Shown here: positions 819-32,720 of the stretch, one piece after another
Numbering within the stretch: the first letter of the stretch is position 1
Layout of the letters: each line of letters starts with the position of its first letter
Source: Falsiroseomonas oleicola
GTDB taxonomy: Bacteria; Pseudomonadota; Alphaproteobacteria; Acetobacterales; Acetobacteraceae
Assembly (NCBI RefSeq): GCF_019029495.1
Contig: NZ_JAERQM010000014.1
Coordinates: 1-36,095, forward strand
Reading direction: 5' to 3'
DNA length: 36,095 nucleotides
Position numbers and translations under genes: made by a program
Notes under the pieces: generated by a model
What the model saw: the letters and a program-made list of their open reading frames with translations, nothing else
What the model was told of the DNA's origin: nothing
Database searches by the model: none

Positions 819-1576
819 AGGCGTGCCGCCAGGCTGGAGACCAGATCTGCCGCCCGGGCCGCCCCGCGCCGCGCCGCGGCCACGCCGTTCAGCGCCCGCG
901 CCGTGGTGGCATTGGCCGCCGTCACCGGCGCCAGCGCCTGGCGGTAGCCGGCGGCAAAGCGGCCAAAGCTGCGGTTCAGCCCCGGCGCCACCATGCCCAC
1001 CGCGTTCATCACAACCCTCGCATCCCCCATCAGCTGATTGGCCTGGGCGGTGTACTGGCCCAGCGTCTGCTGCACGCTGCGCACCACGGCCACCCCTTCG
1101 GTCAGCGCCGCGCCGGCGCGCTGCACAAAGCTGCCGGCGGCCTGTTCATCCAGCGCATCCGCCAGCGCCGCGATGCGCCCGCCGAAGTCCTCGATGACGT
1201 CGGGAAAGCGCCGGCTGCCATCCTCGACAAAGAGGAAGTGCAGCTCGACCACGCGGCCGAGGTCGTGGCGGATGCGGGTGTGGAACTCGACCAGGCTGAC
1301 CTTGAGCAGGCCAAGCGTCGGGTGCAGCAGCTCGCCCGGCTCCTCGGCCTCCGCCGCCTCGATCATCTCGAGCTCCAGCGCGGCGACATCATCGCCCACC
1401 CGAAAGCCGATCAGGCCGAGGCGGCGGGTGGCGCGGCCGGTGTCCTCGACCCAGACGGAATCCCGGAAGGGATATTCGTGGATCGTGGTGGCCCGCCCGA
1501 AGCTGCCCTCCATGTTCCAGACCTCGAAGGGCACACCGCGCCAGGCGGCCGGGCGATAGGGAAGGGTGCCGCTCAT
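815..1576 (-). CDS. phage DNA circularisation protein, N-terminal domain (Mu gpN-like)
   Basis: This 253-aa protein opens with W-R-G-V-P-F-E-V, followed by a segment on restoring the structure to E-Y-P-F-R-D-S-V-W-V-E-D, and then G-F-x-V-G-D-D. That is the typical start of the DNA_circ_N family found in Mu gpN, a tail hub/baseplate protein despite its family name. The usual protein is about 450 aa; this one stops after the N-terminal half and a helical region, and the rest appears in the next gene. It overlaps the tape-measure stop by 4 bases and the downstream gene by 4 bases, so it sits in one tight late operon. Confidence 0.85.
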   Translation of the reverse strand: MSGTLPYRPAAWRGVPFEVWNMEGSFGRATTIHEYPFRDSVWVEDTGRATRRLGLIGFRVGDDVAALELEMIEAAEAEEPGELLHPTLGLLKVSLVEFHTRIRHDLGRVVELHFLFVEDGSRRFPDVIEDFGGRIAALADALDEQAAGSFVQRAGAALTEGVAVVRSVQQTLGQYTAQANQLMGDARVVMNAVGMVAPGLNRSFGRFAAGYRQALAPVTAANATTARALNGVAAARRGAARAADLVSSLAARL

Positions 1577-5798: not shown

Positions 5799-5836
5799 GG
5801 GGTCACCTCCAGGGCGTTGCAAAGGGGGACGCAGAA

Positions 5837-9888: not shown

Positions 9889-10770
9889 CTACAGGCTGCG
9901 GAACAGCGCGCCGAAAGCCTGGTCAGGCGATTGCACAGCATCCGCCAGGCCGGCCGTGACGCCGGCGGCGCCGAGGAAGGTCTCGGCCTTGGTGCCGTGA
10001 ATGGCGGAGGCCTTCAGGCGACGGTTGCGGGCGACGGTCTCCACGAAGAGCTCGCCCATCGTGTCGATATCCGACTGCATGCGGGCACGCGCCGCAGCCT
10101 CGAGCTTCTCGTAAGGGTTGCCCTCGGCCTTGTGGGCGCCGTAGCGGATCATCGTCACGGTGATGCCCGACTGGGATAGCGCCTCGGAGAAATCCACATG
10201 CATGCCGATGACGCCGATGGAGCCGGTGCCACCGGTGCGGGGCACGGTGATGCGGTCGCAGGCGCAGGCGATGGCATAGGCGGCCGAGAAGGCGTTCTCG
10301 TCGAGGATGGCCCAGAGCGGCTTTTGGCCGCGCAGGCTGTGGATGGTGTCCGCCAGGTCGAAACAGCCAGCGACCTCGCCGCCCGGGCTGTCGATCAGGA
10401 AGGCGATGGCCTGCACATCCGGATCGCGCAGCGCGGCCAGCAGGTTGAGGCGGATGCCGTCATAGCCGGTCATGCCGGAATAGGGGCGCAGCGTGCCGAG
10501 CTTTTGGACGAGGGTGCCGCTGACCTCGATCAGCGCGATGCCGCCGACGATGCGGTAGCCGTTGGTGTCGTCCTCGCGCGGGCCACGCTGCGCGGCGGCC
10601 TCGTCCTCGTCGAAGGCCTGCGGGCGCAGCGCGACCAGCTGTCCGGCGCTGAACAGGCGGGCGATGCCGAGCCGGTCCGCCAGCGCCGCCATCACCACCT
10701 CGGCCTTGGCCGGATGGATGGCGATGGGCGTGTTGAACAGGCGCTGCGCCAGGTGGGGGAAGCGGGTCAC
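9889..10770 (-). CDS. phage head maturation protease/minor capsid protein C, S49 (SppA) family
   Basis: A 293-aa serine protease of the S49 clan. It has the D-S-P-G-G-E-V motif at 127-133, the catalytic Ser162 in D-E-N-A-F-S-A-A-Y-A, and the catalytic Lys214 in R-Y-G-A-H-K-A-E-G-N-P-Y. It cuts scaffold and portal-region proteins during procapsid maturation in lambda-like heads. Starts with GTG at 10770, with GGAGAG five bases upstream. Ends right after the protease domain, so the scaffold part that is often fused lies in the next gene. Confidence 0.92.
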   Translation of the reverse strand: MTRFPHLAQRLFNTPIAIHPAKAEVVMAALADRLGIARLFSAGQLVALRPQAFDEDEAAAQRGPREDDTNGYRIVGGIALIEVSGTLVQKLGTLRPYSGMTGYDGIRLNLLAALRDPDVQAIAFLIDSPGGEVAGCFDLADTIHSLRGQKPLWAILDENAFSAAYAIACACDRITVPRTGGTGSIGVIGMHVDFSEALSQSGITVTMIRYGAHKAEGNPYEKLEAAARARMQSDIDTMGELFVETVARNRRLKASAIHGTKAETFLGAAGVTAGLADAVQSPDQAFGALFRSL

Positions 10771-11207: not shown

Positions 11208-12833
11208 CTACTTCGCCTTCTCCGGCCTCTCCGCCGGTCGGTTCGGCGACCCCGCTGCCCAGGTCGGCAGCGGGATGCCGCGCTCCTGCATCATGCGGAT
11301 CTCCAGCGCCCGCTGATCCAGGTTCTCCTCAAAGTCCCGGCCCTGCTCGGCCGCCTCATCCTCCAGCGTGCCCAGCCCGGCCTCCATCCCCAGCACCGCG
11401 CCCTGGCGCTCCGCAACCGGGTCCACCCAGCCACGGGCCGGGCCGATCCAGCGGCAGCGGGCATAGGCCGTGCGCATCTCGGCGAAGGGCGGCGCGTTGC
11501 GGGGAAGGGGAGCCAGGCCGCGCTCCAGCACCTCCTCCAGGAAGGCGCCGTAGATCGGGTTGGCGAAGCCCATAGCGAACCAGTCCCGCCGCCGGATCGC
11601 CGTCTTCCACGCTTCCAGCATCGCCGCGCGGGCGCTGCTGTAATTCGTCTTGCTGTAGTCCCAGGTCAGCTGCTCGGCCGAGAGGCCCGTCGCGGCCGCC
11701 AGGGCGCGCAGCACGGCGGATTGGAAGGCCTCGAAGCCGCTGTTCGGGCGGGTGGCGCTCTGGCTTTTCAGGGTCTCGCCCGGGGCCAGGTGCGGCACCT
11801 TCACGCCGCCGATCATCAGCGGGTTGGCGGCGTGGTGCTCGCCGCGCAGCTGCTGATAGGCGCCGATCATCTCGTCGCCGGCGGTGGCCAGCGCCAGGTC
11901 CTCGCGATCGAGCGGGGATTCGATGACGGTGGCGAAGACCGTTTGCAGCAGCGCCTGCTGCAGCTCCGCCTGGTCGTAGCGGGACAGCATGCGCATCCGT
12001 GCCAGGATCGGCGTCAGGATGCCGGTGCCGCGGTGCTGGCCGGCACGCTCCCGGTCGAAATCGTGCACCACGATGGGGCGACCCCAGGGTGTTTCGCGCG
12101 GAAAGTAGTCCCAGTGCATGGAGGGCACCGCGGCGTAGACGTCGCCCTGATGCGCCTGGCGGATGTGGTAGCCGACCGCGGCGGCGGAGGCGCCATCCAG
12201 CTGCACGCCCCCGCGCAGGGTCAGCGTGTCCATCTGACCATAGGGGTTGGAGAGGCGGTCCGGGTCGATCAGCTGGACGGAGGTGCTGTAGCGCGCGCCG
12301 CCGGCGCCGACCCGCTCCGGCGTCCAGAGCAGGCAGGCCAGGCTGTCGCCGTCGATCACCTTGTGGCGCAGCGCCACCCAGAACATCTGGGTCAGGGTCT
12401 GATGCCGCTCCGCATCGCAATGTCGGCCGAGGTCGTCGGCGAACATGCGCCATTCGGCCTCGACCACGCGGCCGAAGTCATCGGCCCAGCTGGCATCGAA
12501 GCCGGGGGAGAAGCGTTCCAGCGCGCGGTAATCGGGCTTGGCGACCAGGCGGAACTGGCTGCCGATGGCGCTGTCGAGGATGCGGGTGACGCCGCCGGTC
12601 GCCCAGCCGTCATTGCGGATGAGGTCGCGGGAGCGGGCGACCATGCGGTCGCGGTCGTGGTTGATCTCGCCATCGGGCGAGCGCAGCCAGGGCTGCCAAG
12701 TGGCACTTTCCTGGCTGAACAGGTTCGCCGCGTCATAGGCGAAGGCGCCACCGATGCCACCCGGCACGCCGCTGGCCTGGGCGCGCAGGCGGCGAGCGCG
12801 CAGGACCTGGCCGGCGGAGCGGGCGCGTTTCAT
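11208..12833 (-). CDS. phage portal protein (lambda gpB family)
   Basis: A 541-aa portal subunit, the dodecameric ring through which DNA is packaged. It contains A-A-N-L-F-S-Q-E-S-A-T-W near the start, R-S-R-D-L-I-R-N-D-G-W-A-x-G, a W-D-Y-F-P-R-E-T segment, Q-R-G-T-G-I-L-T-P-I-L-like text and the diagnostic L-S-A-E-Q-L-T-W-D-Y-S-K-T-N-Y-S-S-A-R near residue 370-390, typical of lambda-type portals. Overlaps the gpW stop by four bases (ATGA). Length is normal. Confidence 0.93.
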   Translation of the reverse strand: MKRARSAGQVLRARRLRAQASGVPGGIGGAFAYDAANLFSQESATWQPWLRSPDGEINHDRDRMVARSRDLIRNDGWATGGVTRILDSAIGSQFRLVAKPDYRALERFSPGFDASWADDFGRVVEAEWRMFADDLGRHCDAERHQTLTQMFWVALRHKVIDGDSLACLLWTPERVGAGGARYSTSVQLIDPDRLSNPYGQMDTLTLRGGVQLDGASAAAVGYHIRQAHQGDVYAAVPSMHWDYFPRETPWGRPIVVHDFDRERAGQHRGTGILTPILARMRMLSRYDQAELQQALLQTVFATVIESPLDREDLALATAGDEMIGAYQQLRGEHHAANPLMIGGVKVPHLAPGETLKSQSATRPNSGFEAFQSAVLRALAAATGLSAEQLTWDYSKTNYSSARAAMLEAWKTAIRRRDWFAMGFANPIYGAFLEEVLERGLAPLPRNAPPFAEMRTAYARCRWIGPARGWVDPVAERQGAVLGMEAGLGTLEDEAAEQGRDFEENLDQRALEIRMMQERGIPLPTWAAGSPNRPAERPEKAK

Positions 12834-14939: not shown

Positions 14940-17096
14940 TCAGCTGACCCAGCGGCGACGCACGGTCTTGAACGAGGCGTCTGCAGGTGCCGTCGGTATG
15001 GCCGCGCGCCCTTGCCGTGGCGGCGTATCGACGGTGCTCGCCGGCCGCGGCGGAGCTGTGCCTTCGCCCTTCCTTGGCCCCACGTAGCCCACTGCCGCCA
15101 TATCCGCCCGCCGGTTCAGCTGCAGCCCGAAGTGCAGCAGCCCGCACAGCGCGCCATAGGCATAGACCCGGCAGTCCAGCGCCTCGTTCCGCCGCCCAGG
15201 GATCGGCTCCCACACCCGGTACCGGCTCACCCCGGACTTCACCGTGATCAGCCGCTCCGCCGTCAGCTGCTGGTACCAGCCGAGGTCCCGCGTCGCCGGC
15301 ACATGCATGAAGCCCGGCCCGGGCTCCTCCAGCGCCAGGCGGTTGCGAATCACGTCCTTCGCGCTGTTCACGCCCAGCATGATGGGCCGGTAGCTCGCCT
15401 TGTGCGCCGGTGTCGGCCGCTTGGTCGGCCAGACCGGGTTGCGTGCGCCCTTCTGCGCGCTCTCGCCCTTGATGCCCCAGATCTTCCGGCCCAGCCGCGC
15501 CTTGCAGAAGGCGTAGACCTTCTGGGTATGGTGTCCACCGGTGTCGATGCAGGCGGCCTCGATCGCGAAGGGCCGGCCGTCGTCGCGGTGAAAGCGCTGC
15601 AGCAGATAGGCGTCGACCTGGTCCCACAGCGCATCGCTGCCGGGATCGCCCTCGAAGACCTCATAGGCGATGGACCAGGATTCCTCGTGGTGGCCCCAGC
15701 CCACCAGCTCCAGCACCACGCAATCCTGCTGCACGTCGAGGCCTGCGGTCAGCACCGCCACGCCTTCCGGCACCACGCCCGGCCAGTTCTTCGCGCGGCG
15801 GATTAGCGCGTCCAGCGCCAGGGCCTTGCCGGTGTGCTGGCGGTAGGGCCTGGCCGCCTGGGTGTTCCACCAGACCTGGAGCTTCTCCTCATCGCCCTGT
15901 GCCGCCAGCCACTTCCCGGCGACATCGGCCGGCTTGTCGCGCTGCCAGGGCGAGTAGAGCTTCGAGGCCTGGAATCCCGCATGCTTATTCGGCACCGCCC
16001 AGGCGCCGCAGTGCTGGCAGGTGGCGCGGTAGACGGCGTAGCGCCGGCCGGCCCACCACTGCCAGGTGGCGTCGACCGCGGCCTCTGTGCCGCCCTGCTT
16101 CGGCAGGGCGCGCCAGCGAGCCTCATAGGCGTCCAGCGGCGCCTGGCGCTCGCCGCAGCAGGTGAAGGGCCGCGTCTGGTGCCAGCGGGCCGTGGTGAGC
16201 GCCCGGAGGCGATCGCCCTCGCTCCAGCCGGTGCCGCAGCACTCGCAGTAGATCCGTGCCGTCTCCGGCCGGTGCACCCCCTCCGGCTTGTCCCAATGGA
16301 CGTGCCGGAAGAAGTCGAGGAACTGGCGGTGGCCGCAATGCGGGCAGGCCAGGGAGGCGCGCCGCTGATCGCTGGCCGCCTCCGCCGCCTCGATGCGGCT
16401 GCTGCCTTCGACGGTCGGCGAGCAGGCGCGCAGGGACAGCCAGTTCAGGTCGAAGCTGGCGAGGCGCTCCTCGGCGATGTCGATCGGCTCGCCCTCGCGG
16501 GTGACGACGTATTTGTCGACCTCGTCGCAGAGCAGCACGCGGATCGGGCGGCGCGCCAGGTTGTCGGGCGAGCCGGCGCCGGCCAGCGCCAGGAAGCCGC
16601 CCGGGAAGCTTTTGAAGAGCAGCGTCTCCTCGGCATTGCGCGTCTTGGCGGAGCCGACCAGGTCGCGCAGCACCGGGGTGGCGCGCACCATCGGTGTGAT
16701 GCGCTCCTTGGAGAACTGCTCGGCCGCGGCCTCCTTCGGCTGGAGCAGGAGGATGGGGCAGGGGTCGAGATGGGCGAAGTAGCCGAAGACATTCTCCAGA
16801 AGCGCGGTCTTCATCAGCTGGGTGCAGACCATGGCGCTGATGGTGTGCACGCCCGGCTCGGTGACGGCGAGCATCGGCCCGCGCGCCACCTCGACGGTGG
16901 CGGTGCGCCAGCGGCCGGAGCGGGAGCCGGCGCCCTTGGCGAGGTGGCGGTAGCGGTCGGCCCATTCGGGCACGGAGATGCGCGGCGGCGGCGTCAGGCC
17001 GCGGCGCCAGGCACGTGCGAGGCGGTCAGTCGGGGTCGCCGGGTGCGGTGAAATCGGCTTCGGGCTCGCCGAGCTCCTCGAGCTGCTCGTGAACAT
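14940..17096 (-). CDS. terminase large subunit (lambda gpA-like)
   Basis: A packaging motor of up to 718 aa. It has an ATPase N-terminal half with the Walker-B-like V-L-L-C-D-E-V-D-K-Y near residue 187, and the C-terminal nuclease half with T-A-G-L-D-V-Q near 447 and I-D-T-G-G-H near 516. Between them are four cysteine pairs (C-P-H-C-G-H, C-E-C-C-G-T, C-C-G-E, C-Q-H-C-G-A), zinc-finger-like inserts seen in GpA terminases. The ATG at 17096 overlaps the small subunit by 71 bases and the first 30 residues look like read-through of the other frame, so the true start may be later. A basic proline-rich tail ends the protein. Confidence 0.92.
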   Translation of the reverse strand: MFTSSSRSSASPKPISPHPATPTDRLARAWRRGLTPPPRISVPEWADRYRHLAKGAGSRSGRWRTATVEVARGPMLAVTEPGVHTISAMVCTQLMKTALLENVFGYFAHLDPCPILLLQPKEAAAEQFSKERITPMVRATPVLRDLVGSAKTRNAEETLLFKSFPGGFLALAGAGSPDNLARRPIRVLLCDEVDKYVVTREGEPIDIAEERLASFDLNWLSLRACSPTVEGSSRIEAAEAASDQRRASLACPHCGHRQFLDFFRHVHWDKPEGVHRPETARIYCECCGTGWSEGDRLRALTTARWHQTRPFTCCGERQAPLDAYEARWRALPKQGGTEAAVDATWQWWAGRRYAVYRATCQHCGAWAVPNKHAGFQASKLYSPWQRDKPADVAGKWLAAQGDEEKLQVWWNTQAARPYRQHTGKALALDALIRRAKNWPGVVPEGVAVLTAGLDVQQDCVVLELVGWGHHEESWSIAYEVFEGDPGSDALWDQVDAYLLQRFHRDDGRPFAIEAACIDTGGHHTQKVYAFCKARLGRKIWGIKGESAQKGARNPVWPTKRPTPAHKASYRPIMLGVNSAKDVIRNRLALEEPGPGFMHVPATRDLGWYQQLTAERLITVKSGVSRYRVWEPIPGRRNEALDCRVYAYGALCGLLHFGLQLNRRADMAAVGYVGPRKGEGTAPPRPASTVDTPPRQGRAAIPTAPADASFKTVRRRWVS

Positions 17097-17727
17097 AGCG
17101 GGTCAGGGCCTCGGAGACGCGATCCGCCTCGAGGTTGAGGTCGGCGGCCAGCAGCGGCCCGACGCGGGCCGGCCAGTTCAGCCAGGCATCGCGCGCCGCG
17201 CGGGCGCTGTTGAAGAGGACCTGCTCGGCGAGCTCGATGTCGATGACGGCGCCGGCGGCCTTGCGGGCGGTGACCATGCCCTTGAGCGCGGCGGCGGCGG
17301 CTTTGACCTTTTCGGACTGCGCGAGCTCGGGCGCGTCGCCGGCGAGGACGCGGCGGGCGAAGGCGTCGAGGTCGAGGGATTCGCCCTCGGCGTCGGGCTC
17401 GGCGCGCCGCCGGCGGCGGAGGGCACCGCCCGTCGGCTGAGGCTCGAGCGCCTCCGCGGGTGCGGACAGTGCGGACAGGGGTGCGGACACTGCGGACAGG
17501 GTGTCCGCACCGCTGTCCGCACCCGTGTCCGCACCCGCCGCGGGGTGCCGGTTGCCATGCCGCCAGCCCGTGCCGACCAGCTCGGGATTTAGCTTCCCGC
17601 TCGACAGGGCATGGAGTTTGCCCTGTTCCACGGCGCGCCGCACCAGCCTGTCACTGCACCCTTCGCGCCGCGCGAACTCCCGGATGGAGATGCCATCCTG
17701 TGGGGGTGCGGACAGGGGTGCGGACAC
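17026..17727 (-). CDS. terminase small subunit (Nu1-like)
   Basis: A 233-aa DNA-recognition subunit. The N terminus carries a winged helix-turn-helix (I-S-I-R-E-F-A-R-R-E-G-C-S-D-R-L-V-R-R-A-V-E-Q-G-K) as in Nu1. The middle (about 60-90) is a repetitive A-D-T-G-A-D-S-G-A-D and S-A-P-L-S-A linker. The C-terminal half is helical and probably binds the large subunit. The GTG at 17727 is the only in-frame start before an upstream TGA. The DNA of the linker consists of TGCGGACA repeats (separate entry). Confidence 0.8.
   Translation of the reverse strand: MSAPLSAPPQDGISIREFARREGCSDRLVRRAVEQGKLHALSSGKLNPELVGTGWRHGNRHPAAGADTGADSGADTLSAVSAPLSALSAPAEALEPQPTGGALRRRRRAEPDAEGESLDLDAFARRVLAGDAPELAQSEKVKAAAAALKGMVTARKAAGAVIDIELAEQVLFNSARAARDAWLNWPARVGPLLAADLNLEADRVSEALTRYVHEQLEELGEPEADFTAPGDPD
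17461..17726. repeat. nine copies of TGCGGACA in and at the start of the small terminase gene
   Basis: Direct copies of TGCGGACA on the plus strand start at 17461, 17470, 17482, 17491, 17707 and 17719. Inverted copies (TGTCCGCA) start at 17502, 17514 and 17526. Spacing is 9 or 12 bases, in step with codons. The arrangement of four direct followed by three inverted copies is unlike a simple coding repeat. Small terminase binding sites often lie in or next to their own gene, so this is a candidate packaging site. Confidence 0.75.
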
Positions 17728-19031: not shown

Positions 19032-19379
19032 CTACTGCACGGTCAGGGTGGTGTAGCCCTTGCGGCCCTTTTTGCCGGGGATGATCTGGCCGATCATCGC
19101 CCTGGTGATGACCACATTCTCGGTGGCCGGCGTGCTGGCGTGGGAGCTGCGCGTCAGCACGCGATTGCCGGCGATGACGCTTTCATGCGGCCCCATGGCG
19201 TGCAGCAGCGTGACCTTCAGCGCCTCGTTCTCCGCCGTCAGGCGATCGATCTCCGCCTTGTTCACCGCATAGGTGCCGGCATCGGCGACGACCTTCCGGT
19301 CGAGGATCTGCGGCCGCGTCACCGGCGGTGCGGCCGCGGTGGCCTTGGTGCGGGCGGTGGGCTTGGGCGTGCGAGCCAT
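19032..19379 (-). CDS. 115-aa hypothetical protein following the recombinase
   Basis: A basic N terminus with A/K/T repeats, a middle coiled-coil-like segment (N-K-A-E-I-D-R-L-T-A-E-N-E-A-L-K-V-T-L-L) and a C-terminal T-R-A-M-I-G-Q-I-I-P-G-K-K-G-R-K-G-Y. Its ATG shares one base with the recombinase TGA (TGATG), so it is co-translated with it. Its role may be linked to recombination, but nothing in the sequence proves it. Confidence 0.6.
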   Translation of the reverse strand: MARTPKPTARTKATAAAPPVTRPQILDRKVVADAGTYAVNKAEIDRLTAENEALKVTLLHAMGPHESVIAGNRVLTRSSHASTPATENVVITRAMIGQIIPGKKGRKGYTTLTVQ

Positions 19380-20095
19380 CAGCTGGTGTTCCTGTCGAGA
19401 ATGCGTTGCACCTGGGTGGGGTGCCAGACTTCGGCGCCGGCGGAGGTTTTCACCCCGCGCGCCATCAGGGCCGCGGCGATCTGCGGCAGACTGGTGCAGC
19501 CCGCCGCCTCCGCGGCGCGAATCATCGGCAGCACGCGGGCCGCATGCTCGGCGGCGAGATCCCGCCGCACGGCATTCGCGCGCCGTGCCTGCTCGGCGTC
19601 GCCGGCGACCAGGCGCGGGCTGCCGAGGCGAACGCCGCGCGCCCGCGCCGCCTGAAGCGCCGCCCGGGTTCGGGCGGAGATCATCTCGCGCTCATGCTCG
19701 GCGACGGCGGCCAGGATGTGGATGGTCAGCCGGTTGGCGTGCGGGTTGTCGCAGGCCACGAATTCGATGCCGCTCTCCATCAGGTTGCTGACGAAGGCGA
19801 CGTTGCGGGCCAGGCGGTCGAGCTTGGCGATGATCAGCGTGGCGCGGCGGGCGCGGCAGGCGACGATGGCGGCGGCGATCTGCGGCCGGTCGTTCTTCTT
19901 GCCGGACTCGATCTCGCGGAACACGTCGAGGATCCGGCCGCCCGCGGCCCGGACATGGCGCTCCACCGCCTCTTGCTGCGCCTCCAGGCCGAGGCCCGAG
20001 GCGCCCTGCTTGTCGGTGCTGACGCGGTAGTAGGCGACGAATCCCGGCAAGCCCGCTGCGGCGCCAGCGGCCTTCTTGAAGGGCTTCCGGGCCAT
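19379..20095 (-). CDS. serine recombinase (resolvase/invertase family)
   Basis: A 238-aa site-specific recombinase. The catalytic Ser26 sits in A-Y-Y-R-V-S-T-D-K-Q; the active-site arginine helix shows A-K-L-D-R-L-A-R-N, and the E-R-E-M-I-S-A-R-T long helix follows. The C-terminal 60 residues form a short DNA-binding region (S-L-P-Q-I-A-A-A-L-M-A-R-G-V-K-T). Length fits a small resolvase/invertase rather than a large serine integrase. It could resolve the element, invert a segment or serve as an atypical integrase; no target is proven. A palindrome lies 40 bases upstream. Confidence 0.9.
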   Translation of the reverse strand: MARKPFKKAAGAAAGLPGFVAYYRVSTDKQGASGLGLEAQQEAVERHVRAAGGRILDVFREIESGKKNDRPQIAAAIVACRARRATLIIAKLDRLARNVAFVSNLMESGIEFVACDNPHANRLTIHILAAVAEHEREMISARTRAALQAARARGVRLGSPRLVAGDAEQARRANAVRRDLAAEHAARVLPMIRAAEAAGCTSLPQIAAALMARGVKTSAGAEVWHPTQVQRILDRNTS

Positions 20096-20134
20096 GTTCC
20101 AGCAGGGGTGCGGGGTGGCGGGCCTTTACAGACC

Positions 20135-20148: not shown

Positions 20149-20198
20149 ACGGGATGTTAAGGGGCCGCCGGCTTACGCGCAGCGCTGTCGGAAACGAC

Positions 20199-20937: not shown

Positions 20938-21341
20938 TGGGCGCCTCCAAGCGCGCGCGGGCGCCGGCGGAGGGTCCGCGGCGCCGAATGTCAGAACGTG
21001 TGAGCGTGCCTGGTCAGTGGCGCCGCGCGATGGCGGGGCGCGGGCTTCCGCCGCCGGGGTGGCGGTGGCGCGTGGCTTTCCCAGGCTATCCGAAGACCTA
21101 CCCCAGAACCTGCCACGTGATCCACGGGCTTTCGGAGTCTCGTCGGGGTCGAAGAGGTGATGCAGGACGCCTCAAGGCGGCGGGCCCCCGCCCGGCGCTG
21201 GCAGGGGAAATATCACAGATCATGAAAGCAGAGGAGCGATCCTTAACATCCGATCGTAAAATCCGGGAAGCGCCAGCAACCGGCCCCGGCTGGACGGGCC
21301 AACGCATCCAGCCAACAAATAGAAACAATCGGCGAACGCTG
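20938..21341. other. intergenic region downstream of rdrB
   Basis: About 400 bases without a gene I can support. The first part (to about 21210) is GC-rich like the phage; from there to rdrB the composition drops, so the edge of the transferred RADAR block probably lies near 21200. No clear terminator, direct repeat or att-like sequence was recognised here. It also contains the promoter region of the DUF6362-like gene. Confidence 0.6.
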
Positions 21342-23864
21342 TTAAGTTCGTAGGGATATCGGGCGAAATCGGTACGCAGATCCATTCCGATTGAGTTTCT
21401 CTAAAATCGAAGTCGCCTCATTCGGCCCCACGGAAAACTTCCGACGCAACACATCATATATCGCCGCATACTCATTTTGAAGGTTAGTAGCAAAAATACC
21501 CGTATCATCACTTCCAACACAAATGGCCGGCACCGACGCAAAACCGTCGGCGGTCAGATTTAGCCACCGAAAGAGATGATGCTCGTCCAGCCGATCATAA
21601 GAACTGATACGGACATTACTAGTAGGAAGCACCTCAATGGCGATACTTGCATCGGCGAGATTACGCAGTACATTTGCTTGAAGTGTCGTCAACGCGGCCT
21701 CAGTGAGCCAATTTGTTCGAACTTCCATACGCTCATCTAAGCGATTGCCGCGGCGATGCCGCTCACGGTAAATAGAATATGCAAGCGGATGCAGCCTCGC
21801 AGCATCCCCGATCCGCTTCAGTTCCTGGCGCCTTGCGGGAGCATTTAGTCTGCCTGCTTTGTCGTCGGCAGCTGCAGCGATTTCGCCAACGTCGAGTCGG
21901 ATATCACTCCTCCGCTCGAGTTCAAGCACCTCGAGGATGTCAAGCTCGCGAAGCAACCACGCCTGATACAAACTTGCGGCCGAATATTCCGTCTCGTAGA
22001 TCCGGGAAGAAAGATGCGCAATCTGCGTCTGAAGACCTAGAGCTTCTGCAGCAGTCTCTGGACGTGCTGATAGACAAGCATGCGCATATACAAGGTTATC
22101 TAGATGTTCACCTGCAAAAATCATGATTTTCGGCCCGGCTCGGTCTCGCCAGAGGCTAGGATGAATGCCAAGCGCAGTCGCGTGGCCCATTCTGTCGCCT
22201 TTGCCCAACGAGAGGAAAGATTTCGCCTCGTCGCATGCCCGGACTCCCGAAACAAGGTGAACAAAGTCCTCGCCTACGTGGAAAGAAGAATGTTGAAAGC
22301 CATGGCGTCGAAGATACCTGAAAGTGGGCGCAAAGACTTCCGGAGGCGCATGAAGCTCGTTTGCCGCCGCATCGATTCCTCGCAAAATCTGCCGAACGAA
22401 TACGCTACGCTCAGCCGCCTGCCTGACGACCTGGGCCTGCTGCCTCAAGTCGGTCCTTAGCGCCATATTAAGCGCCTGAGGGACACGATCGCGCCCCCTG
22501 CGAGAAGGACGTTTAATGAAATGAACCACGAGGGCTAGCTCGGCATCTGGCCTGCCCGCAGTTGGACGCGAACAACCCGGACAACAAGCTCCTGTAAGGC
22601 AGCCCGGCGCTACACCGCGAAGACCGCGCGCAGCCGCCCGCTTGGGACAACCTCTAAACAAGAGATAGCCGTCAATGATGTGCGCTAGCAGCATCATAAG
22701 ATCTCTTATATCCTTTTTAGGGGCTAGCCGCCCCTCGAGATGCTTCAGCACGCGATGAGGCGGCGCTCCGTTAAGTTGCCTGAAGCGCGCTTCATACGCA
22801 CGCTCGAGATGCTCACGAACTCCAACAAAGGTGTATTTTTGAAACTGATCAAAACCCACTTCGTCAATTTGCTGAACTGAAATGCGAGAAATTTGCGTTT
22901 GAACAAGCATATTAAAATACAGAGCCAAGCCCAACTGAGTTTTCGGCCCGCCCGCCAAACGCAACCCCTGAAACCAGGAATATAGGAATGCGGCCTCGTC
23001 AATGATAGGTGATGATGGCGATCCCGGATGCATTCTTGAAATTGGCCTATAACTAAGAGGTAGTCCAACCGTATCGCTGCACCCATAGTCGGCGAGATCA
23101 GCATTCATGGTTGCCAAAATCGATGCCATTGCAATATCTGTCCGCCTCGCCCTTTTAAGGTCGCTTAAGATGGATGCTGTAATATGCCTTACTCTCCGAG
23201 CCGAACGCAGTCGCCGGTAAATTTCATAGGGAGTTAGCCCCAACTCTAGCTGATCGTAGAATTCACGCGTTGGCTCTCCTGATTTTTGTAGAGCTGCCTT
23301 GAGCTCTCGTAGATATATTTCAGGTGAACGCACCGCATCAGGCCATACAATATCAAGTTCGGTTGAGCCATTTAGATGCATGTGCATTTCGTTCAGGCCT
23401 TCGCGCTCGATAAGGTCCCGAATCTCCGGCTCACAGGTAGAAAGCAGAGCAGAGTCGCCAATCTCGGCTGTTAAATATGCCCTGGGATCAACTTGAAAAT
23501 CTGGCCCATCTCCTTCATCAACCAGAAAGGCGACTAAGACAGCTAGAGGCGAGATCATCGGCAGCAGCTCTTGCCAGTCCACCCACGCTTCGCTTCGAAC
23601 GTGGATTGTCTTCCCGGTTCGCTTAATGAACCGAAACGCCAACGCCGAAAGGATCGCCCACGGAAGTTCGTGTAGCTCCTCGACCTGCCCTAAGCGCTCA
23701 TCTAGATAGTTTTTGTAGAAATGGTCGGCTCTCCTTGTATCGGATCGCCTTTCAGCGACAAACAGACGCCTTCGAACGTCGCGCATAGAAGGGACTGATC
23801 CCTTGCACAACTCCTTAAGTCCGAACGAGTCTGAGAAAGCTCGACGGAAAATGAGCGCGCTCAT
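21342..23864 (-). CDS. rdrB: RdrB, adenosine deaminase subunit of a RADAR anti-phage system
   Basis: An 840-aa deaminase. In RADAR, RdrB forms a large hollow shell and, with RdrA, deaminates adenosine in RNA or nucleotides after infection, which arrests growth. All adenosine-deaminase signatures are visible: the metal-binding H161-M-H163 in M-H-M-H-L-N-G-S, H529-V-G-E532 with the catalytic Glu, R-M-G-H561, the T-S-N motif at 748-750, and D786-D787 in V-G-S-D-D-T-G-I-F followed by E-Y. The length is near 800 aa, far above the roughly 340 aa of housekeeping deaminases, because of long inserts, one with C406, C422, C427, C428 and C431. Starts 7 bases after the rdrA stop. AT-richer than the phage genes on either side, so acquired as cargo. 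Confidence 0.9.
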   Translation of the reverse strand: MSALIFRRAFSDSFGLKELCKGSVPSMRDVRRRLFVAERRSDTRRADHFYKNYLDERLGQVEELHELPWAILSALAFRFIKRTGKTIHVRSEAWVDWQELLPMISPLAVLVAFLVDEGDGPDFQVDPRAYLTAEIGDSALLSTCEPEIRDLIEREGLNEMHMHLNGSTELDIVWPDAVRSPEIYLRELKAALQKSGEPTREFYDQLELGLTPYEIYRRLRSARRVRHITASILSDLKRARRTDIAMASILATMNADLADYGCSDTVGLPLSYRPISRMHPGSPSSPIIDEAAFLYSWFQGLRLAGGPKTQLGLALYFNMLVQTQISRISVQQIDEVGFDQFQKYTFVGVREHLERAYEARFRQLNGAPPHRVLKHLEGRLAPKKDIRDLMMLLAHIIDGYLLFRGCPKRAAARGLRGVAPGCLTGACCPGCSRPTAGRPDAELALVVHFIKRPSRRGRDRVPQALNMALRTDLRQQAQVVRQAAERSVFVRQILRGIDAAANELHAPPEVFAPTFRYLRRHGFQHSSFHVGEDFVHLVSGVRACDEAKSFLSLGKGDRMGHATALGIHPSLWRDRAGPKIMIFAGEHLDNLVYAHACLSARPETAAEALGLQTQIAHLSSRIYETEYSAASLYQAWLLRELDILEVLELERRSDIRLDVGEIAAAADDKAGRLNAPARRQELKRIGDAARLHPLAYSIYRERHRRGNRLDERMEVRTNWLTEAALTTLQANVLRNLADASIAIEVLPTSNVRISSYDRLDEHHLFRWLNLTADGFASVPAICVGSDDTGIFATNLQNEYAAIYDVLRRKFSVGPNEATSILEKLNRNGSAYRFRPISLRT

Positions 23865-23871
23865 TTCTCGG

Positions 23872-26800
23872 CTAGCTCTGCGGGTCTACGTCGTTGCCGC
23901 TGATCCGCACTACGCGACGTCGAACGCCCGAGCGACCTAGCGCCGCAAGCGAAGTGCCGACACGGCCGTCTTGGTCGCTTTGGCCCTGAAGCTGAACGGT
24001 ATTAAGTGCGAAATAGAGGCCAGCGAAGACAGCGCTATTTTCGGCCTTTGGTGATCTAAGGTGAGTTTCCGCAAAAGACGCATCGCCATCCTGCCAAAAA
24101 GAATCTAATCGTGAAGCATAATGCTGGAAGATGCTGTCGTTGGGTTCTTGCGGCCTTGGCACTGCGACTTCCTGTGCCTCGTCTCTTGCAAGGAAATAGG
24201 CCCATAACGGACAAGAGAAAATGAGATCAAAGAACGCAAATTCAGGCGTTTCTAGAAACTCTGCCTTTCCCTCGGAACTGTATACTTCATCCAAAAGTCG
24301 CGCAAATACCGCCCCTGAGGTTACCGGGTTATTTGCAAGACTTCTCCGGGTGTCTATATTGGCTGCACGCAGTGCCTCGTATCCGACAGAATGAAGAAAG
24401 GCGATGACAGTTCGGTGCATAAGGACACCAAGGTATCTTGTTTTTCCGTGAGCCAGTTCGTCGCGCATATTTTGAAAGGAATACGTGAATCTCGTCCACA
24501 TTCGAGAGAGGGTCACAGGTGCCAGAGGGCGTAAAGCGCGGCGCGTGGCGTGCTCGTTCACCCAGTCCACGAGAATATCCTCAACACGCCATCCAGAATG
24601 CGAGGCAAATGGATCTCGATCCTTATCTGCACCAACCTCATCCTCATCATCGAAATCGGCGGGGTCTTCAGACCGTGTTTCGTGAGCTGCGACAGGCGTG
24701 GGATAGCTGCGGACCTGGGAAGAAGATTTTAATATCCTAGCTACTTGATTTAGTCGATCCGATGCAGGCGCAGAAATAACATCGATTAACTCGCCAACGG
24801 TACTTAGGAGGCGTAAAAATGAATAGTTGCCTGACTCTGCGGCTTGCCCACTAACAATTCGATGCATTGGAATTCTCGCCACCAAACCGGAGTTCCGGTC
24901 GAGCCGCTCGGCAAGATCTTCGACGCCGTTGATAAAATATACCTGGAATCCGGCTTCTTTTCCACGGCGCGAATCATAACCCCAGCCCGCTTTTAAAAGC
25001 GACGCATGGTAGCCCCTTAGCGGCGGCGATAATGTTGACAGAACCTGTGCTTGATCCGATTCCACGCGATCTTTAAGCCCCCGAAAAAGATCTCGAGGCA
25101 AAGCTTGTTTGCCATCGTATTCCAAGCCATAAAGCTCCTTAGTCGCAGCATTTCTCTCGCGCACCCGTGTTAATGGGACGCTGGCGCCGCTGAGTCGAAT
25201 TTGAGATATGGTACGACGGATTCCTTCGCGGCCACCTTCTGTAACTTCCCAGGCAGCTAAACGGCTCACGAATTGAAGGCTGCTCTCTACCGTGCCCGCC
25301 GCAAGGTGTGCAAATAAGCGAGGCATACCGTCCGATGCGGCAGCCATGATTTCGCCTCGATCTATTTTTTCTCTAATTACAGCAATTCGGAGCAGATAAT
25401 CCACAGAACGTCCGGGCGAAGCGCGAAATACGCCGTTCAATACAGCCGTCAGATAAAGCGCCACAAGATTTCTATTATCAGCATCAACCGCATCTGGATG
25501 CAGGCGAGCGAGGCTCGTCCACAGTTTGGACTGTGTAAGCCACTCCCCCAAAACCCCAATGATTGCATTGGGGGCGGAGTTACGAGTCTTTTCGATATCT
25601 AGCCCTACGCTCATTAACGCAGTCCAGGCAACGTGGCGAAGCGCGTTCTCCGCCGTACTAAATGCGTCGTTGCTCGGTTGGTTGTCGCCACAAACGTCTA
25701 CAGCCCCGGCTAATATTTGTAGTACGCTTCGGGTTGGCATCTGTAGCAATTGGCGACTCACGAGTTCCAGGTCAGGTTGATAACGGACACCGAGAACCCT
25801 GTCTGATAGCCTCTTGAGAAAAATGCGCAGGTGAATTGGTGAGTTCAATCGCTTTGCTGAAAGTTGAATTTCTCCAATTTCGTCATAATATGAAAGCGGC
25901 TTGAGATCAATTCGGTTTTCGGGTGGCGCCACTTTAACAAGGTACTGGTCCTGAAGAGCCTCGACCATTGAGCCAATTTTGCGAATCAACGATGTTCCAG
26001 GCTCAGCGACCTCCCGCATCTGCTCCGCTCGAAGAAATGCCTCTCCCATTTGGCCCCACTGCTGGCGACGAACGAGAAGCGCATAGAGATTAAGGTCACC
26101 TGATAGTATAATGCGAAGCTGTGGCGTGACGAGATACTTACGAAGTGCCTCAAGCACCGGCCAGCCCCGCTCGAACCAGGTATCCACGTCATCGATGGCT
26201 AGAACGAAGGCATTTACGTCCAAATATCGGGCGGCGGCCCGAACAAAATCGCGGAAACGCCGCTCAAAATCGTGCGCTGCCGATGCGTCTTCTAGACCAC
26301 GATCTAAGACGAAATCTGGGTCAAGCCAATCTTTTGTAGCATCGAGCCCCTCCCCAATGCCGTCGAGCAGAGACAGACCTTGGGCTAACTTTCTTAGCGC
26401 GCTTGCGACAATCACGTATTCATCGGAGCGCCCAGACCGACGCCGGCCATGTTCTGTCGCAATTCTTATACGGTCGATGACTACAATAACAATGTTTTGC
26501 TTTGTTTCAATCAGCGTCGGATCGATGAGGCCGAGGCTATAAAGTTGCGGAGGGGAAGAGTTGGCATTCGAATTACCGGTCAATAACTTCTGGTAGTCAC
26601 CGTGTTGAACCGTATTTAAGATGCTTGCTAGGAACGTTGTTTTTCCTTCTCCTCGGCGAGCAGAGACCAATATCGCGTCGTGGCGACGCCCACGCAGTAC
26701 GTTTAGTGTCAAGGGGCGATTGCCATCCTCGACTCCGTCCCTTGGCTCATCGATGGGGCGAGCCAGTGCACTCAACACTCTGGACCGGGCTTCGCGCTGA

Positions 26801-26880
26801 ATGAAACTCGGAGCTGCGGGCTCAACGCTAGGGTTTCCCACGAGGTCGAGATCGATGTGGATCGTGTCTACATCGCTCAA
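23872..26880 (-). CDS. rdrA: RdrA, P-loop ATPase subunit of a RADAR anti-phage system
   Basis: A 1002-aa ATPase. RdrA assembles into a ring that cooperates with RdrB and is needed for RNA editing or nucleotide deamination in the defence response. Walker A is A-R-R-G-E-G-K80-T-T (74-82), Walker B V-L-A-I-D230-D-V-D (226-233), and a sensor-like R-I-I-L-S-G-D-L-N follows at 256-264. The remainder is a long helical region with no domain I can name, normal for RdrA, whose C-terminal part is thought to contact RdrB. The start is TTG at 26880: AAGGAG lies seven bases upstream and the reading begins S-D-V-D-T-I-H-I-D-L-D. Composition is AT-richer than neighbours. No accessory gene such as a membrane SLATT protein is seen. 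Confidence 0.88.
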   Translation of the reverse strand: MSDVDTIHIDLDLVGNPSVEPAAPSFIQREARSRVLSALARPIDEPRDGVEDGNRPLTLNVLRGRRHDAILVSARRGEGKTTFLASILNTVQHGDYQKLLTGNSNANSSPPQLYSLGLIDPTLIETKQNIVIVVIDRIRIATEHGRRRSGRSDEYVIVASALRKLAQGLSLLDGIGEGLDATKDWLDPDFVLDRGLEDASAAHDFERRFRDFVRAAARYLDVNAFVLAIDDVDTWFERGWPVLEALRKYLVTPQLRIILSGDLNLYALLVRRQQWGQMGEAFLRAEQMREVAEPGTSLIRKIGSMVEALQDQYLVKVAPPENRIDLKPLSYYDEIGEIQLSAKRLNSPIHLRIFLKRLSDRVLGVRYQPDLELVSRQLLQMPTRSVLQILAGAVDVCGDNQPSNDAFSTAENALRHVAWTALMSVGLDIEKTRNSAPNAIIGVLGEWLTQSKLWTSLARLHPDAVDADNRNLVALYLTAVLNGVFRASPGRSVDYLLRIAVIREKIDRGEIMAAASDGMPRLFAHLAAGTVESSLQFVSRLAAWEVTEGGREGIRRTISQIRLSGASVPLTRVRERNAATKELYGLEYDGKQALPRDLFRGLKDRVESDQAQVLSTLSPPLRGYHASLLKAGWGYDSRRGKEAGFQVYFINGVEDLAERLDRNSGLVARIPMHRIVSGQAAESGNYSFLRLLSTVGELIDVISAPASDRLNQVARILKSSSQVRSYPTPVAAHETRSEDPADFDDEDEVGADKDRDPFASHSGWRVEDILVDWVNEHATRRALRPLAPVTLSRMWTRFTYSFQNMRDELAHGKTRYLGVLMHRTVIAFLHSVGYEALRAANIDTRRSLANNPVTSGAVFARLLDEVYSSEGKAEFLETPEFAFFDLIFSCPLWAYFLARDEAQEVAVPRPQEPNDSIFQHYASRLDSFWQDGDASFAETHLRSPKAENSAVFAGLYFALNTVQLQGQSDQDGRVGTSLAALGRSGVRRRVVRISGNDVDPQS

Positions 26881-27203
26881 AGTTCAGCTCCTTTTTGATC
26901 TGATCCGAAATAATACGCTAGTTGCCCATGTTGCGGTAGGCGCTTGGGAGAAAACGGTTCGCACACGTGCCGCATCAGCAATGTCGGCGTCGGAGTAGCA
27001 ATGCGGTCAGGGCGTAGAGGCCGCCACTAGTGTTTGGCGGCCATCAGCCTTCCATCGCGCGTTAGGCTAGTTCATGCTGGCACCGCAGTGCGAGCATGCG
27101 GCAGGATAAGGGCGCAGCCTAAGGCGCGCGAACGTCCTGGTCGGCGCGTCCTTGACATCCGCAGAGCCAGTTGCGCTCAGCCCCCAGGCTCCGTGCACAG
27201 CCG
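26881..27203. other. rdrA upstream region with candidate promoter and hairpin
   Basis: About 320 bases without a supportable gene. On the minus strand TATTAT (26910-26915 as ATAATA on plus) is a good -10 candidate for rdrA, but the -35 is weak. A 7-bp inverted repeat (27019-27025 with 27036-27042) around CACTAGTG may terminate transcription from the gene to the right. The GC shift between phage and RADAR composition lies in this stretch. Confidence 0.45.
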
Positions 27204-27887
27204 TCAGGAGCGCCGATTGCTGAGCCGGCTGCGTGTTGCTCTTCGCGCCTGGGGCGATACTTCACAACGCCCAAAGTAGTCATCCAGCGCGGTCTTCACG
27301 AGGCACGCGATGATCTCCCCCCGCGACTTCTCCGGCGTCGTCTCACCCCAGTAGAAGCTGACGTCGTCCTCCATTCGGTCGTCGAACACCGCCAGCAGCT
27401 GACCGATCACCGCCTGGCGGTCCAGATCCACCACGGAGCCGCGGCGGTAGCGTTCCATCCGCCGCTCCGTCTCCTGGTCAAAGCGATGTTCCACCGCCTC
27501 GGCGACCGGCTCCGGCGGTGCCGGGTCCGGCGGCTCCGGCAGCGGCAATTGCGTGGGCCAGGCGCCGGTCGGCGGGGCGGCGCTGGTGCCAGCCAACGGG
27601 CGCACCGCCTGGCTGCCGCGGCGCACCAGCAGTTCCAACGCCTCGGCATTCGTCAGGCCTGGGGCGTGGCGCAGCCGCCAAGCCTCCACCGTCTCAGTCA
27701 CCACGGCGTCGAGCACCGTCTCCAAGGCCGTTCCCGCCTGTCGGCGCAGGCCGAGGGCGACCAGTCGGCGGATGGCCTCGGCCTCCGTCCCGGCACCTGT
27801 CGCGTGCCGAAAGGCGGCGACCTCGGCCAGCATGCCCTCCTCGAAGGACAGGATTTTGCGGATCGGATAGGCGGCGGGACGGCCCAT
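27204..27887 (-). CDS. ribbon-helix-helix-like hypothetical protein
   Basis: A 227-aa protein. The first 50 residues (R-P-A-A-Y-P-I-R-K-I-L-S-F-E-E-G-M ... E-A-E-A-I-R-R-L-V-A-L-G-L) look like a ribbon-helix-helix DNA-binding domain, followed by a second helical repeat (A-L-E-L-L-V-R-R-G), a proline-rich linker and a C-terminal helical domain ending with K-T-A-L-D-D-Y-F-G. The ATG at 27887 has only a weak AAG-type site. A TTATATCA element touches its start region, and copies recur upstream, which suggests that it represses itself or binds the region as a replication or partition protein. Confidence 0.55.
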   Translation of the reverse strand: MGRPAAYPIRKILSFEEGMLAEVAAFRHATGAGTEAEAIRRLVALGLRRQAGTALETVLDAVVTETVEAWRLRHAPGLTNAEALELLVRRGSQAVRPLAGTSAAPPTGAWPTQLPLPEPPDPAPPEPVAEAVEHRFDQETERRMERYRRGSVVDLDRQAVIGQLLAVFDDRMEDDVSFYWGETTPEKSRGEIIACLVKTALDDYFGRCEVSPQARRATRSRLSNRRS

Positions 27888-31008: not shown

Positions 31009-31572
31009 TCATCGTCGCCCCCTGCGTGGGGACAAGCGCCCGCCGCCATCCCCGCCCAGCGGGCGACGGTCGGCGGGCGCTCCCTCACCCTTCACCGCGG
31101 GGGCGGCGGGCGAGCTGACAGCGGCTTCTGCCGCAACGGTGACGCGCGCGAGCTTTGCGGCCAGGCGCATGGCCACCGCGCCAATCGCGTCGGCCTCGGC
31201 CTGGCTCATCTCGCCATCGGCCAGGGCCTCGCAGAGCGCGGCGGGCACCTCACCGGCGGCGCGCGCGAAGGCCGCGACCTCGGCCGCCAGGGTCGCGCCA
31301 TCACGCGCCCGCTCCGGAACCAGCCGATGGCCGGTCAGCCGTGCCTGTTCGACCGCGACGATGGGCTCGCCAGCGATGCGTTCGAGCTGTGTCACCACGT
31401 CGATTGGCGGGAAGGTGCCGAGGTCGTTCAGGTCATAGTAGCGCGCGAGCTGGGAGGTGGAGACGCGGACACAGGCCGAGGCCGCGACCAACCCGCCCAC
31501 CGCGCCGATCAGCCGTCGGAAGGCGGTTTTCAGCGCGCGGAGATCTTCCTCCACCGGTTGGGTGGCCGTCAT
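31009..31572 (-). CDS. phage regulatory protein, CII-like (Phage_CP76 type)
   Basis: A 187-aa protein (ATG at 31572; one at 31587 is also possible). The first 100 residues hold D-L-R-A-L-K-T-A-F-R-R-L-I, R-V-S-T-S-Q-L-A-R-Y-Y-D and I-D-V-V-T-Q-L-E-R, a pattern of phage CII-like regulators with a helix-turn-helix. The C-terminal tail is Ala/Pro/Gly-rich and looks disordered. The gene follows cro closely in the same early transcript, as CII does in lambda-like phages. Confidence 0.6.
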   Translation of the reverse strand: MTATQPVEEDLRALKTAFRRLIGAVGGLVAASACVRVSTSQLARYYDLNDLGTFPPIDVVTQLERIAGEPIVAVEQARLTGHRLVPERARDGATLAAEVAAFARAAGEVPAALCEALADGEMSQAEADAIGAVAMRLAAKLARVTVAAEAAVSSPAAPAVKGEGAPADRRPLGGDGGGRLSPRRGRR

Positions 31573-31654
31573 CGCCGCGGCCCCCATCCGAACGGAACGG
31601 TTCCCGCTGCGCGGCCAGCGCGCGCGACGCAGAGTGGGGGCATGGAGAACCGCA

Positions 31655-31897
31655 TCAGCCTTGCCCCATCGCCGCCGGACGGCGCGGCACGCGCTGCACC
31701 GGCGGCGCCGCCTGGTAGAAATCCGCCGGCGAGACGGCGCCGCCCGTCACCGACATGATTCGGCGCATCACCGCGGCGCGCGGAATTCGCTGGCCATGCA
31801 GGTAGCGATGCACCGATCGGGCATCATGAAGGCCGAGCTCGCGGGCGAGTTCGGCGAGGGTCCATCCCCGGCCTTGCCGGAATTCTTCGAGCGTCAT
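31655..31897 (-). CDS. Cro-like repressor
   Basis: An 80-aa helix-turn-helix protein starting at the ATG at 31897. M-T-L-E-E-F-R-Q-G-R-G-W-T-L-A-E-L-A-R-E-L-G-L-H-D-A-R-S-V-H carries the motif (split here for length: the recognition helix is around H-D-A-R-S-V-H-R-Y-L). First gene of the minus-strand early operon and divergent from cI. No Shine-Dalgarno sequence is visible before it; the O1 operator lies 10 bases upstream. Confidence 0.75.
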   Translation of the reverse strand: MTLEEFRQGRGWTLAELARELGLHDARSVHRYLHGQRIPRAAVMRRIMSVTGGAVSPADFYQAAPPVQRVPRRPAAMGQG

Positions 31898-31907
31898 GGC
31901 CGCAGAA

Positions 31908-31980
31908 TGGCCACGATGGCCACAAACAGCAAGGCCATATTGGCTACAGACGGCCTCGCCGCTTCTGGCCATAATGGCCA
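31908..31980. promoter_or_regulatory. cro/cI operator region with three operators
   Basis: TGGCCA-N3-TGGCCA or close variants occur at 31908-31922, 31932-31946 (AGGCCA...TGGCTA) and 31966-31980, spaced 24 and 34 bases apart. The last one covers a good cI -10 box (CATAAT, 31970-31975) and ends one base before the cI ATG. CI bound there would block its own promoter, and O1/O2 would block the minus-strand early promoter. Confidence 0.8.
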
Positions 31981-31981
31981 G

Positions 31982-32665
31982 ATGACAAGCCGACTCCAGG
32001 AAGTCCTCGACATTCGGGGCATGAAAGCCGCTGATCTGGCTCGGCTGACCGAGACGCAGCCGAGCACCCTCAGCAAGCTGACCACAGGGAAGCGGCAACT
32101 GTCCCGGGACTGGGCGGTGAAGCTGGCGCCGCATCTCGGCGTGGATCCCATGGCGCTGCTGGCGGAGCCGGGCACGCCCGTGACCGGCGATGCGACGGAA
32201 AGCCTGCTGGTGCAGCCACGGCCGCCCAGCACCCGGCCAGTGCCGCCCGGCCATGTGCTGATCCGCGAATACCAGGCGGAGGCCGCGGCCGGTGAAGGCG
32301 GCGTCGTGATTCTGGACCATACCGCGCCCATCGTCGGCGAATGGGTCATGCCGCGCGATGCGCTGCCGCCGGAGCATCGCAGTTCCACCGTGGTGGTCAT
32401 GCGCGTGGTCGGCGACAGCATGGCGCCACTGCTGCGCCCGAACGAGCGGGTCATGGTGGATATCGGCCACAACTACGTCGGCGCCGACGGCACCTACTTG
32501 GCCTGGAATGGGCTGGTGCAGGTGTTCAAGCGGCTGCAGGTGCTGCCCGGCGCGCCGCCCATGGTGCGGTTTTCCAGCGAGAATCCGGCCTACGCGCCCT
32601 ATCAACTGCCGCTGGATGAGGTGCGGGTGCTGGGCCGGGTGCTGGGGAAGTGGACCTGGCTGTGA
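31982..32665 (+). CDS. CI-type repressor with S24 (LexA-like) self-cleavage domain
   Basis: A 227-aa lysogeny repressor. The N-terminal helix-turn-helix reads M-K-A-A-D-L-A-R-L-T-E-T-Q-P-S-T-L-S-K-L. The C-terminal domain has G-D-S146-M with the catalytic serine and Lys183 in Q-V-F-K, and an Ala-Gly pair at 103-104 is a plausible self-cleavage site, so SOS/RecA induction is expected. I chose the ATG at 31982, where homology starts; the longer frame from 31457 crosses the cro gene. No Shine-Dalgarno site precedes it, and the -10 box predicts a transcript start at the ATG, so the messenger may be leaderless, as lambda cI. Confidence 0.88.
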   Translation: MTSRLQEVLDIRGMKAADLARLTETQPSTLSKLTTGKRQLSRDWAVKLAPHLGVDPMALLAEPGTPVTGDATESLLVQPRPPSTRPVPPGHVLIREYQAEAAAGEGGVVILDHTAPIVGEWVMPRDALPPEHRSSTVVVMRVVGDSMAPLLRPNERVMVDIGHNYVGADGTYLAWNGLVQVFKRLQVLPGAPPMVRFSSENPAYAPYQLPLDEVRVLGRVLGKWTWL

Positions 32666-32673
32666 CACCGTTA

Positions 32674-32720
32674 TGGCCACAATGGCCTTGACGACCATCC
32701 ATTAGTGGCCAGACTGGCCC
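32674..32720. promoter_or_regulatory. second CI operator pair and promoter of the plus-strand operon
   Basis: TGGCCA-CAA-TGGCCT (32674-32688) and TGGCCA-GAC-TGGCCC (32706-32720) flank a TTGACG -35 box (32688-32693). The promoter would drive the plus-strand genes from 32743, so CI can switch off both early arms. Confidence 0.65.

Follow-up and report, generated by a model that had tools for sequence, protein, structure and literature searches.

The RADAR Pair

Contig C6 (NZ_JAERQM010000014.1) of the 5.6-Mb Falsiroseomonas oleicola genome carries a RADAR gene pair among the genes of a tailed prophage. The whole contig, 36,095 bases, is the window analyzed here. The pair consists of rdrB (21342..23864, minus strand), encoding an 840-residue RADAR adenosine deaminase, and rdrA (23872..26880, minus strand), encoding a 1002-residue RADAR AAA+ ATPase. 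The original prediction, made by a model without database searches, had described two long adjacent genes 7 bases apart, and the present computational follow-up recovers both open reading frames (ORFs) as described. Passages of the structure paper (PMC9994260) define RADAR by neighboring large rdrA and rdrB genes, whose products average about 900 residues. In the characterized RADAR complex an RdrA heptamer sits on an RdrB dodecamer. The rdrA-rdrB pairing is conserved in related loci. The rdrA gene starts with TTG, and a Shine-Dalgarno sequence, AAGGAG, lies seven bases upstream.

All the adenosine deaminase motifs that had been read in RdrB (H161/H163, H529, E532, H561, and D786/D787) are present. 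The zinc ligands H161, H163, H529, and H561, the catalytic E532, and D786 are invariant in 32/32 rows of the RdrB alignment, and D787 is kept in 31/32. The alignment leaves out L027, the rdrB of which is split, and L009, a record identical to L032. The zinc ligands and E532 are the counterparts of H152, H154, H498, H530, and E501, given for E. coli RdrB in passages of PMC9994260. PADLOC matches RdrB at an expect value (E) of 1.8e-37, and NCBIfam at E 1.1e-55 over residues 477-828. A phmmer search of the PDB returns 8fnw_A at E 6.3e-101 over residues 30-837; non-RADAR deaminases appear there only from E 0.0034 upward. Fold comparison extends the RADAR fold over most of the protein, beyond the deaminase barrel. 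CARF-ADA (Cad1) proteins are deaminases fused to an N-terminal CARF domain. The PADLOC CARF_ADA match on RdrB is restricted to residues 730-802, Cad1 chains align from residue 142 onward, and Pfam at E 0.01 finds no CARF family in RdrB.

In RdrA the predicted intact P-loop is found as Walker A G79-K80-T81, together with Walker B D230-D231, sensor 1 D262, and sensor 2 R384. Their E. coli counterparts, according to the same passages of PMC9994260, are G81-K82-T83, D221-D222, D253, and R377. These residues are invariant in 29/29 aligned rows, except that T81 is Thr in 27 and Ser in 2; left out are L009 and four rows in which the gene is cut, split, or absent (L020, L021, L022, and L026). PADLOC matches RdrA at E 5.6e-19, covering residues 28-330 only, and NCBIfam at E 1.6e-37 over residues 22-391. 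The phmmer match is to 8fnt_B (E 3.3e-28, residues 67-391), with a weak further stretch at 742-896. The RdrA-specific helical C-terminal domain is present.

Thus, the profile and fold check proposed for the pair comes out for RADAR: PADLOC, NCBIfam, and PDB matches and the fold comparisons favor RdrA and RdrB, and no metabolic deaminase or unrelated ATPase matches better. The evidence supports grouping both proteins with RADAR rather than with metabolic deaminases or unrelated ATPases. The NCBIfam scores, 189.5 bits for RdrB and 129.4 bits for RdrA, do not reach the NF041744 and NF041743 cut-offs (800 and 600 bits), which belong to equivalog annotation sets that cover less than the whole RADAR kind. 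At E 0.001 neither protein matches a PHROGs family, and a viral structure library gives 0 matches at the same threshold.

No third RADAR gene was found when ORFs of at least 70 residues were clustered around 33 loci (the window and L003-L035 without L009). In that clustering rdrB is in 33/33 loci and rdrA in 32, L022 beginning inside the region. The next-largest clusters cover at most 9 loci and include an ABC-transporter family as well as ORFs on the strand opposite the RADAR genes. No known RADAR accessory gene was recognized.

A Divergent Alphaproteobacterial Clade

The maximum-likelihood RdrB tree (32 rows, midpoint root) places the window as sister to Phyllobacterium leguminum with support 100/100. 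Both fall in a group of 12 rows (99/99), and all rows but the window's, 11 in number, come from named alphaproteobacteria. The genera are Phyllobacterium, Rhizobium, Agrobacterium, Aureimonas, Methylobacterium, and Azospirillum. Outside this group lie the branch of E. coli RADAR, with L014 and its kin, and the pVSAL840 branch. Identity of the window pair to the rest of the group is 38-50% for RdrB and 33-51% for RdrA. As a refinement of the first reading, the pair can be assigned on sequence to a divergent clade. RdrB occurs in 3/99 genomes searched, the window's own counted, and was not found among them in the other 58 genomes of the window's family.

E. coli RADAR (PDB 8fnt, 8fnv, and 8fnw; 8hr7-8hrc) shares with the window its gene order, the folds over most of their length, and the named catalytic residues. 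The row labeled E. coli type (L014), so called because its RdrB matches 8fnw at 1,634 bits, is about 30% identical to the window in RdrB and about 20% in RdrA. Unlike E. coli RADAR, the window pair sits within a tailed phage.

The nearest relative found is the Phyllobacterium leguminum pair (L005), 63% identical in RdrB and 64% in RdrA. Its setting differs. None of nine neighboring ORFs tested (0/9) matches a phage structural family by Pfam, three being without any match, and its surroundings include a large serine recombinase, a transposase, Fic, HEPN, and ABC-3C-like genes, and DUF3732. The RADAR GC content there is 57%, near the surrounding 54-56%. The serine recombinase (L005:9115-10815) adjoins the RADAR genes, with the Fic, HEPN, and ABC-3C-like genes nearby. 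The setting looks like a mobile defense island.

The pairs of the two Rhizobium rows (L031 and L032) share the clade and gene order of the window, and lie on large plasmids, where they are annotated as hypothetical proteins. That label was considered as a mark of a missed clade, an idea that is weakened. Two further plasmid pairs carry it too, L033 from Pantoea, which belongs to the E. coli branch, and L034 from Salmonella, so the annotation is not special to the window's clade; the pVSAL840 pair is annotated RADAR. At three other loci a RADAR gene is broken into several ORFs, namely rdrB in L027 (Kluyvera) and rdrA in L021 and L026. These loci are perhaps decayed.

The Cassette and Its Empty Site

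Both RADAR genes lie in a low-GC cassette of 6,048 bp (21220..27267). The IMG/VR contig IMGVR_UViG_3300037860_000065, stretches of which are L083 and L085, aligns to window positions 20411-21219 at 93.6% and to 27268-34583 at 96.1%. Between these flanks it has 83 bases of its own where the window has 6,048. Further left, this contig is 95% identical to the window at 18140-18736 and 15077-17815. At the cassette junction, the last residues of a 227-residue phage protein (see below) are altered relative to the relative's.

The pair was predicted to be AT-richer than the phage genes on both sides, and it is: GC is 52.5% in the two genes, against 70.1% on the left and 66.5% on the right. GC at third codon positions (GC3) is 0.50 in both rdrA and rdrB versus about 0.8-0.95 in most surrounding phage genes. 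Because a closely related phage is without it, the cassette appears to be a fairly recent gain by the phage, a second refinement of the first reading drawn from sequence comparison.

The CII-like and DUF6362 genes lie 10,072 bases apart in the window and 3,608-4,121 bases apart in the four RADAR-less relatives measured (L082, L085, L124, and L130). L124 and L130 were drawn from ten stretches fetched, DUF6362 having a match in 55/120 genomes; in the remaining 8/10 stretches DUF6362 matched, but no other phage query did. That the RADAR site is a standing cargo hotspot is unsupported, as all four measured relatives have 3.6-4.1 kb between the two genes. L082 has a different helicase-type gene (DUF927) in this interval. 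Further L082 genes, for a flavodoxin-fold reductase and a LysR regulator (L082:10615-12248), separate DUF6362 from the serine recombinase, and an MT-A70 methyltransferase gene (L082:3139-3789) is near the integrase.

Judged by its genes, the same phage line carries further defense-like cargo besides RADAR. In the RADAR-less relative a gene pair between the integrase and the first gene common with the window (L085:1438-4865) matches Olokun, a listed defense system (PADLOC OloA E 9.3e-59, OloB E 7.7e-187). At the matching position the window has a low-GC gene (34665-36095, plus strand) that is open at the contig end, where it runs into a 97-base stretch common to four other contig ends. Its product has a DUF4062-like N-terminus (22.8 bits, below the 24.7 cut-off) and a TPR_12 end above its cut-off. 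PADLOC has no match for it, and a defense role is only a guess. The relative's OloB was not found in the window's genome by a search without a positive control.

The Carrier Prophage

The prophage setting named in the original prediction is borne out by the surrounding genes, those given below as start..end all lying on the minus strand. PHROGs identifies a baseplate hub (815..1576), a tape measure protein (1573..3519), a tail sheath (4317..5822) indicating a contractile tail, a major head protein (7663..8694), a head maturation protease (9889..10770), a portal (11208..12833), and a terminase small subunit (17026..17727). The GpA-type terminase large subunit (14940..17096) is identified by Pfam and PHROGs. 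PHROGs additionally matches tail terminator, head closure, decoration, and adaptor genes. A serine recombinase of the DNA invertase family (19379..20095; PHROGs) belongs to the phage and is outside the cassette.

The pair had been placed between DUF6362-like and replication genes, and this holds. Downstream of the cassette is the DUF6362 phage protein (20389..20937; Pfam E 1e-16). On the other side is the 227-residue protein (27204..27887), which has no Pfam family and a weak PHROG match (E 1e-4) to a transcriptional repressor. It is followed by a DUF3987 primase/helicase of phage replication (28200..30944; E 2.4e-89), a CII-like regulator (31009..31587; PHROGs), and an ORF with a helix-turn-helix domain (31655..32698; Pfam HTH_31, residues 268-319). 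Between the helicase and the 227-residue gene is a long inverted repeat (28091-28180) with a 24-bp stem and -60.9 kcal/mol as RNA. Its loop holds TGATATAA repeats, which recur before the 227-residue gene, and the inverted repeat is also in L083. Between the head-tail adaptor and terminase genes, at 13147-14903, are a divergent AraC-type regulator (cupin and helix-turn-helix) and a short-chain dehydrogenase. Third-position GC is somewhat lower in these genes, which are likely cargo. The window has no tRNA gene and no Rfam match at the gathering score.

Contig C2 of the same genome carries a close relative of the tyrosine integrase found in the related phage (97% of the protein, 94% of the DNA). 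It has 422 residues and three integrase domains, with one TGA counted in the matched stretch. It lies about 130 bases past a tRNA-Ser(TGA) gene and about 290 bases from the contig end. This locus is interpreted as the attL end of the prophage on C6. A 29-base match on C12, a candidate for attR, is another tRNA-Ser gene (GGA) and so no attachment site; no far end of the prophage was found in the genome. The termini of C6 do not overlap each other at 20-399 bases, and the contig-end relations of C6 do not reveal the repeat that breaks the assembly. Among plasmids, a search with window bases 12000-36095 for the carrier phage gave one 366-base match only.

RADAR on Other Phages

Prophages are reported to carry RADAR almost never. 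At E 1e-5, none of three RdrB queries (the window's, that of L030, and the pVSAL840 type) matches any of 50,697 phage records; the E. coli type was scanned in IMG/VR, not against these records. The IMG/VR scans gave five further contigs with an RdrB match (L030, L087, L088, L089, and L090), none of them with the pVSAL840-type query. In L030 the RADAR genes (L030:7055-12412) have a P-like helicase loader on one side and an anti-repressor on the other, and beyond the anti-repressor come terminase, portal, protease, and head genes. In L087 they lie between RecT/exonuclease genes and O-like/DnaB genes (L087:6487-11771). As in the window, both pairs are flanked by tailed-phage genes and are near replication genes. 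They belong, however, to other RADAR branches, with RdrB 28% (L030) and 31% (L087) identical to the window's, and their phage genes and sites differ. In L088 and L089 RADAR follows a tail fiber gene at or near the contig end, L089 also having holin and endolysin genes, so these two are only possible cases of RADAR inside the prophage. L090 has a 123-residue RdrB match at the contig edge. Thus, carriage of RADAR by prophages is rare yet recurrent, in more than one RADAR branch. Among the papers listed by searches of the open PMC library, no title or abstract start treats RADAR in a particular prophage.

Proposed Role and Alternatives

We consider it likely that the pair is a complete, divergent RADAR, a cassette that a temperate phage with a contractile tail has recently taken up into its early region, and that it shields the lysogen. 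Observed directly are two intact genes whose products have RADAR folds and keep the named catalytic residues, the phage genes that flank them left and right, and a closely related phage in which the site is empty. By analogy with characterized RADAR, RdrA in the lysogen would sense a sign of infection by another phage, and the RdrA ring would dock on the RdrB shell. RdrB would then be driven to convert ATP to ITP and dATP to dITP. The spoiled nucleotide pool would abort the infection, shielding the host, and hence the prophage, from other phages. Thus, the prophage may protect its host from competitors, as the original prediction proposed.

In passages of the structure paper (PMC9994260), the model is that RdrA senses infection, RdrB makes ITP and dITP, and phage replication stops. 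An earlier report had proposed RNA editing by RADAR, of which the structure paper found little, and the same paper names the trigger as unresolved (PMC9994260). It lists protection in E. coli against T2, T4, and T6, against T5 for two of three systems, and, for the C. rodentium system, T3 too (PMC9994260). The narrow phage range makes the carrier's escape less paradoxical. The carrier is probably not hit owing to a narrow trigger or to weak expression of the genes in its own lytic cycle, and a narrow trigger would be the simplest reason, again by analogy.

Several observations weigh against this reading. The C2-C6 join is not seen; the integrase is on a separate contig, and the prophage is not in one piece. 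The final 97 bases of C6 are repeated at four other contig ends, and its first 97 bases at the end of C3. The relative is mosaic left of the cassette, with identity of 85% at 20128-20346 and 74% at 19031-20041. The cassette edges share no 9-base direct repeat and show no target-site duplication, only one inverted 9-mer. Because the NCBIfam scores are far under the cut-offs, the trigger and the substrate may differ from those of characterized RADAR. No promoter of the scanned type is seen in the 323 bp upstream of rdrA, and terminator-like sites are at chance level (6 found, 7.4 expected), so expression in the lysogen stays predicted.

A rather unlikely proposal is that the temperate phage holds RADAR with a built-in escape, either self-immunity or a replication style that RADAR misses, and uses it as a weapon against rivals or to retune its own lytic nucleotide pools. 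Somewhat less likely again, the genes may be intact but unexpressed in the lysogen, retained since the gain is recent. The still foreign base composition, the upstream region without a clear promoter, and the lack of RADAR in 4/4 relatives measured are in keeping with a silent passenger. Set against it are two long stop-free ORFs that keep the named catalytic residues and the usual gene order, the Shine-Dalgarno sequence at rdrA, and the presence of RADAR on other prophages.

It is quite improbable that RADAR serves the phage's own lytic programme, lying on the early-gene strand and possibly being read with the helicase. The CII-like gene, helicase, 227-residue protein, RADAR, and DUF6362 do follow one another on one strand, with terminators between them not above chance, and RADAR is near replication genes in two unrelated prophages (L030 and L087). 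But a closely related phage does without RADAR, and, in passages of PMC9994260, active RADAR halts phage replication in the tested cases. There is very little to be said for an artefact of assembly joining. The GC step is sharp at both cassette edges and the contig ends are repeat breaks, but cassette and flanks are on one contig, the same phage runs on through either flank with the order and orientation of one relative contig, and RdrB has one match in the genome. A metabolic adenosine or AMP deaminase beside an unrelated ATPase is ruled out by the length, fold, and gene partner of RdrB and refuted by the RADAR matches, a single deaminase domain not being the best full-length match.

The likely case, therefore, is the recently acquired defensive cassette, and the locus adds a member to the known RADAR systems in a setting from which they are reported to be almost absent. 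As its clade scores far under the NCBI RADAR cut-offs, surveys using such models may undercount. A RADAR inside a virus lets one ask how a phage carries an anti-phage weapon. The 5.5-kb pair in a tailed phage and the related phage without it, the latter as a metagenomic contig only, make a natural comparison, and comparing cassette-bearing with cassette-free phage could reveal both the RADAR trigger and the carrier's escape.

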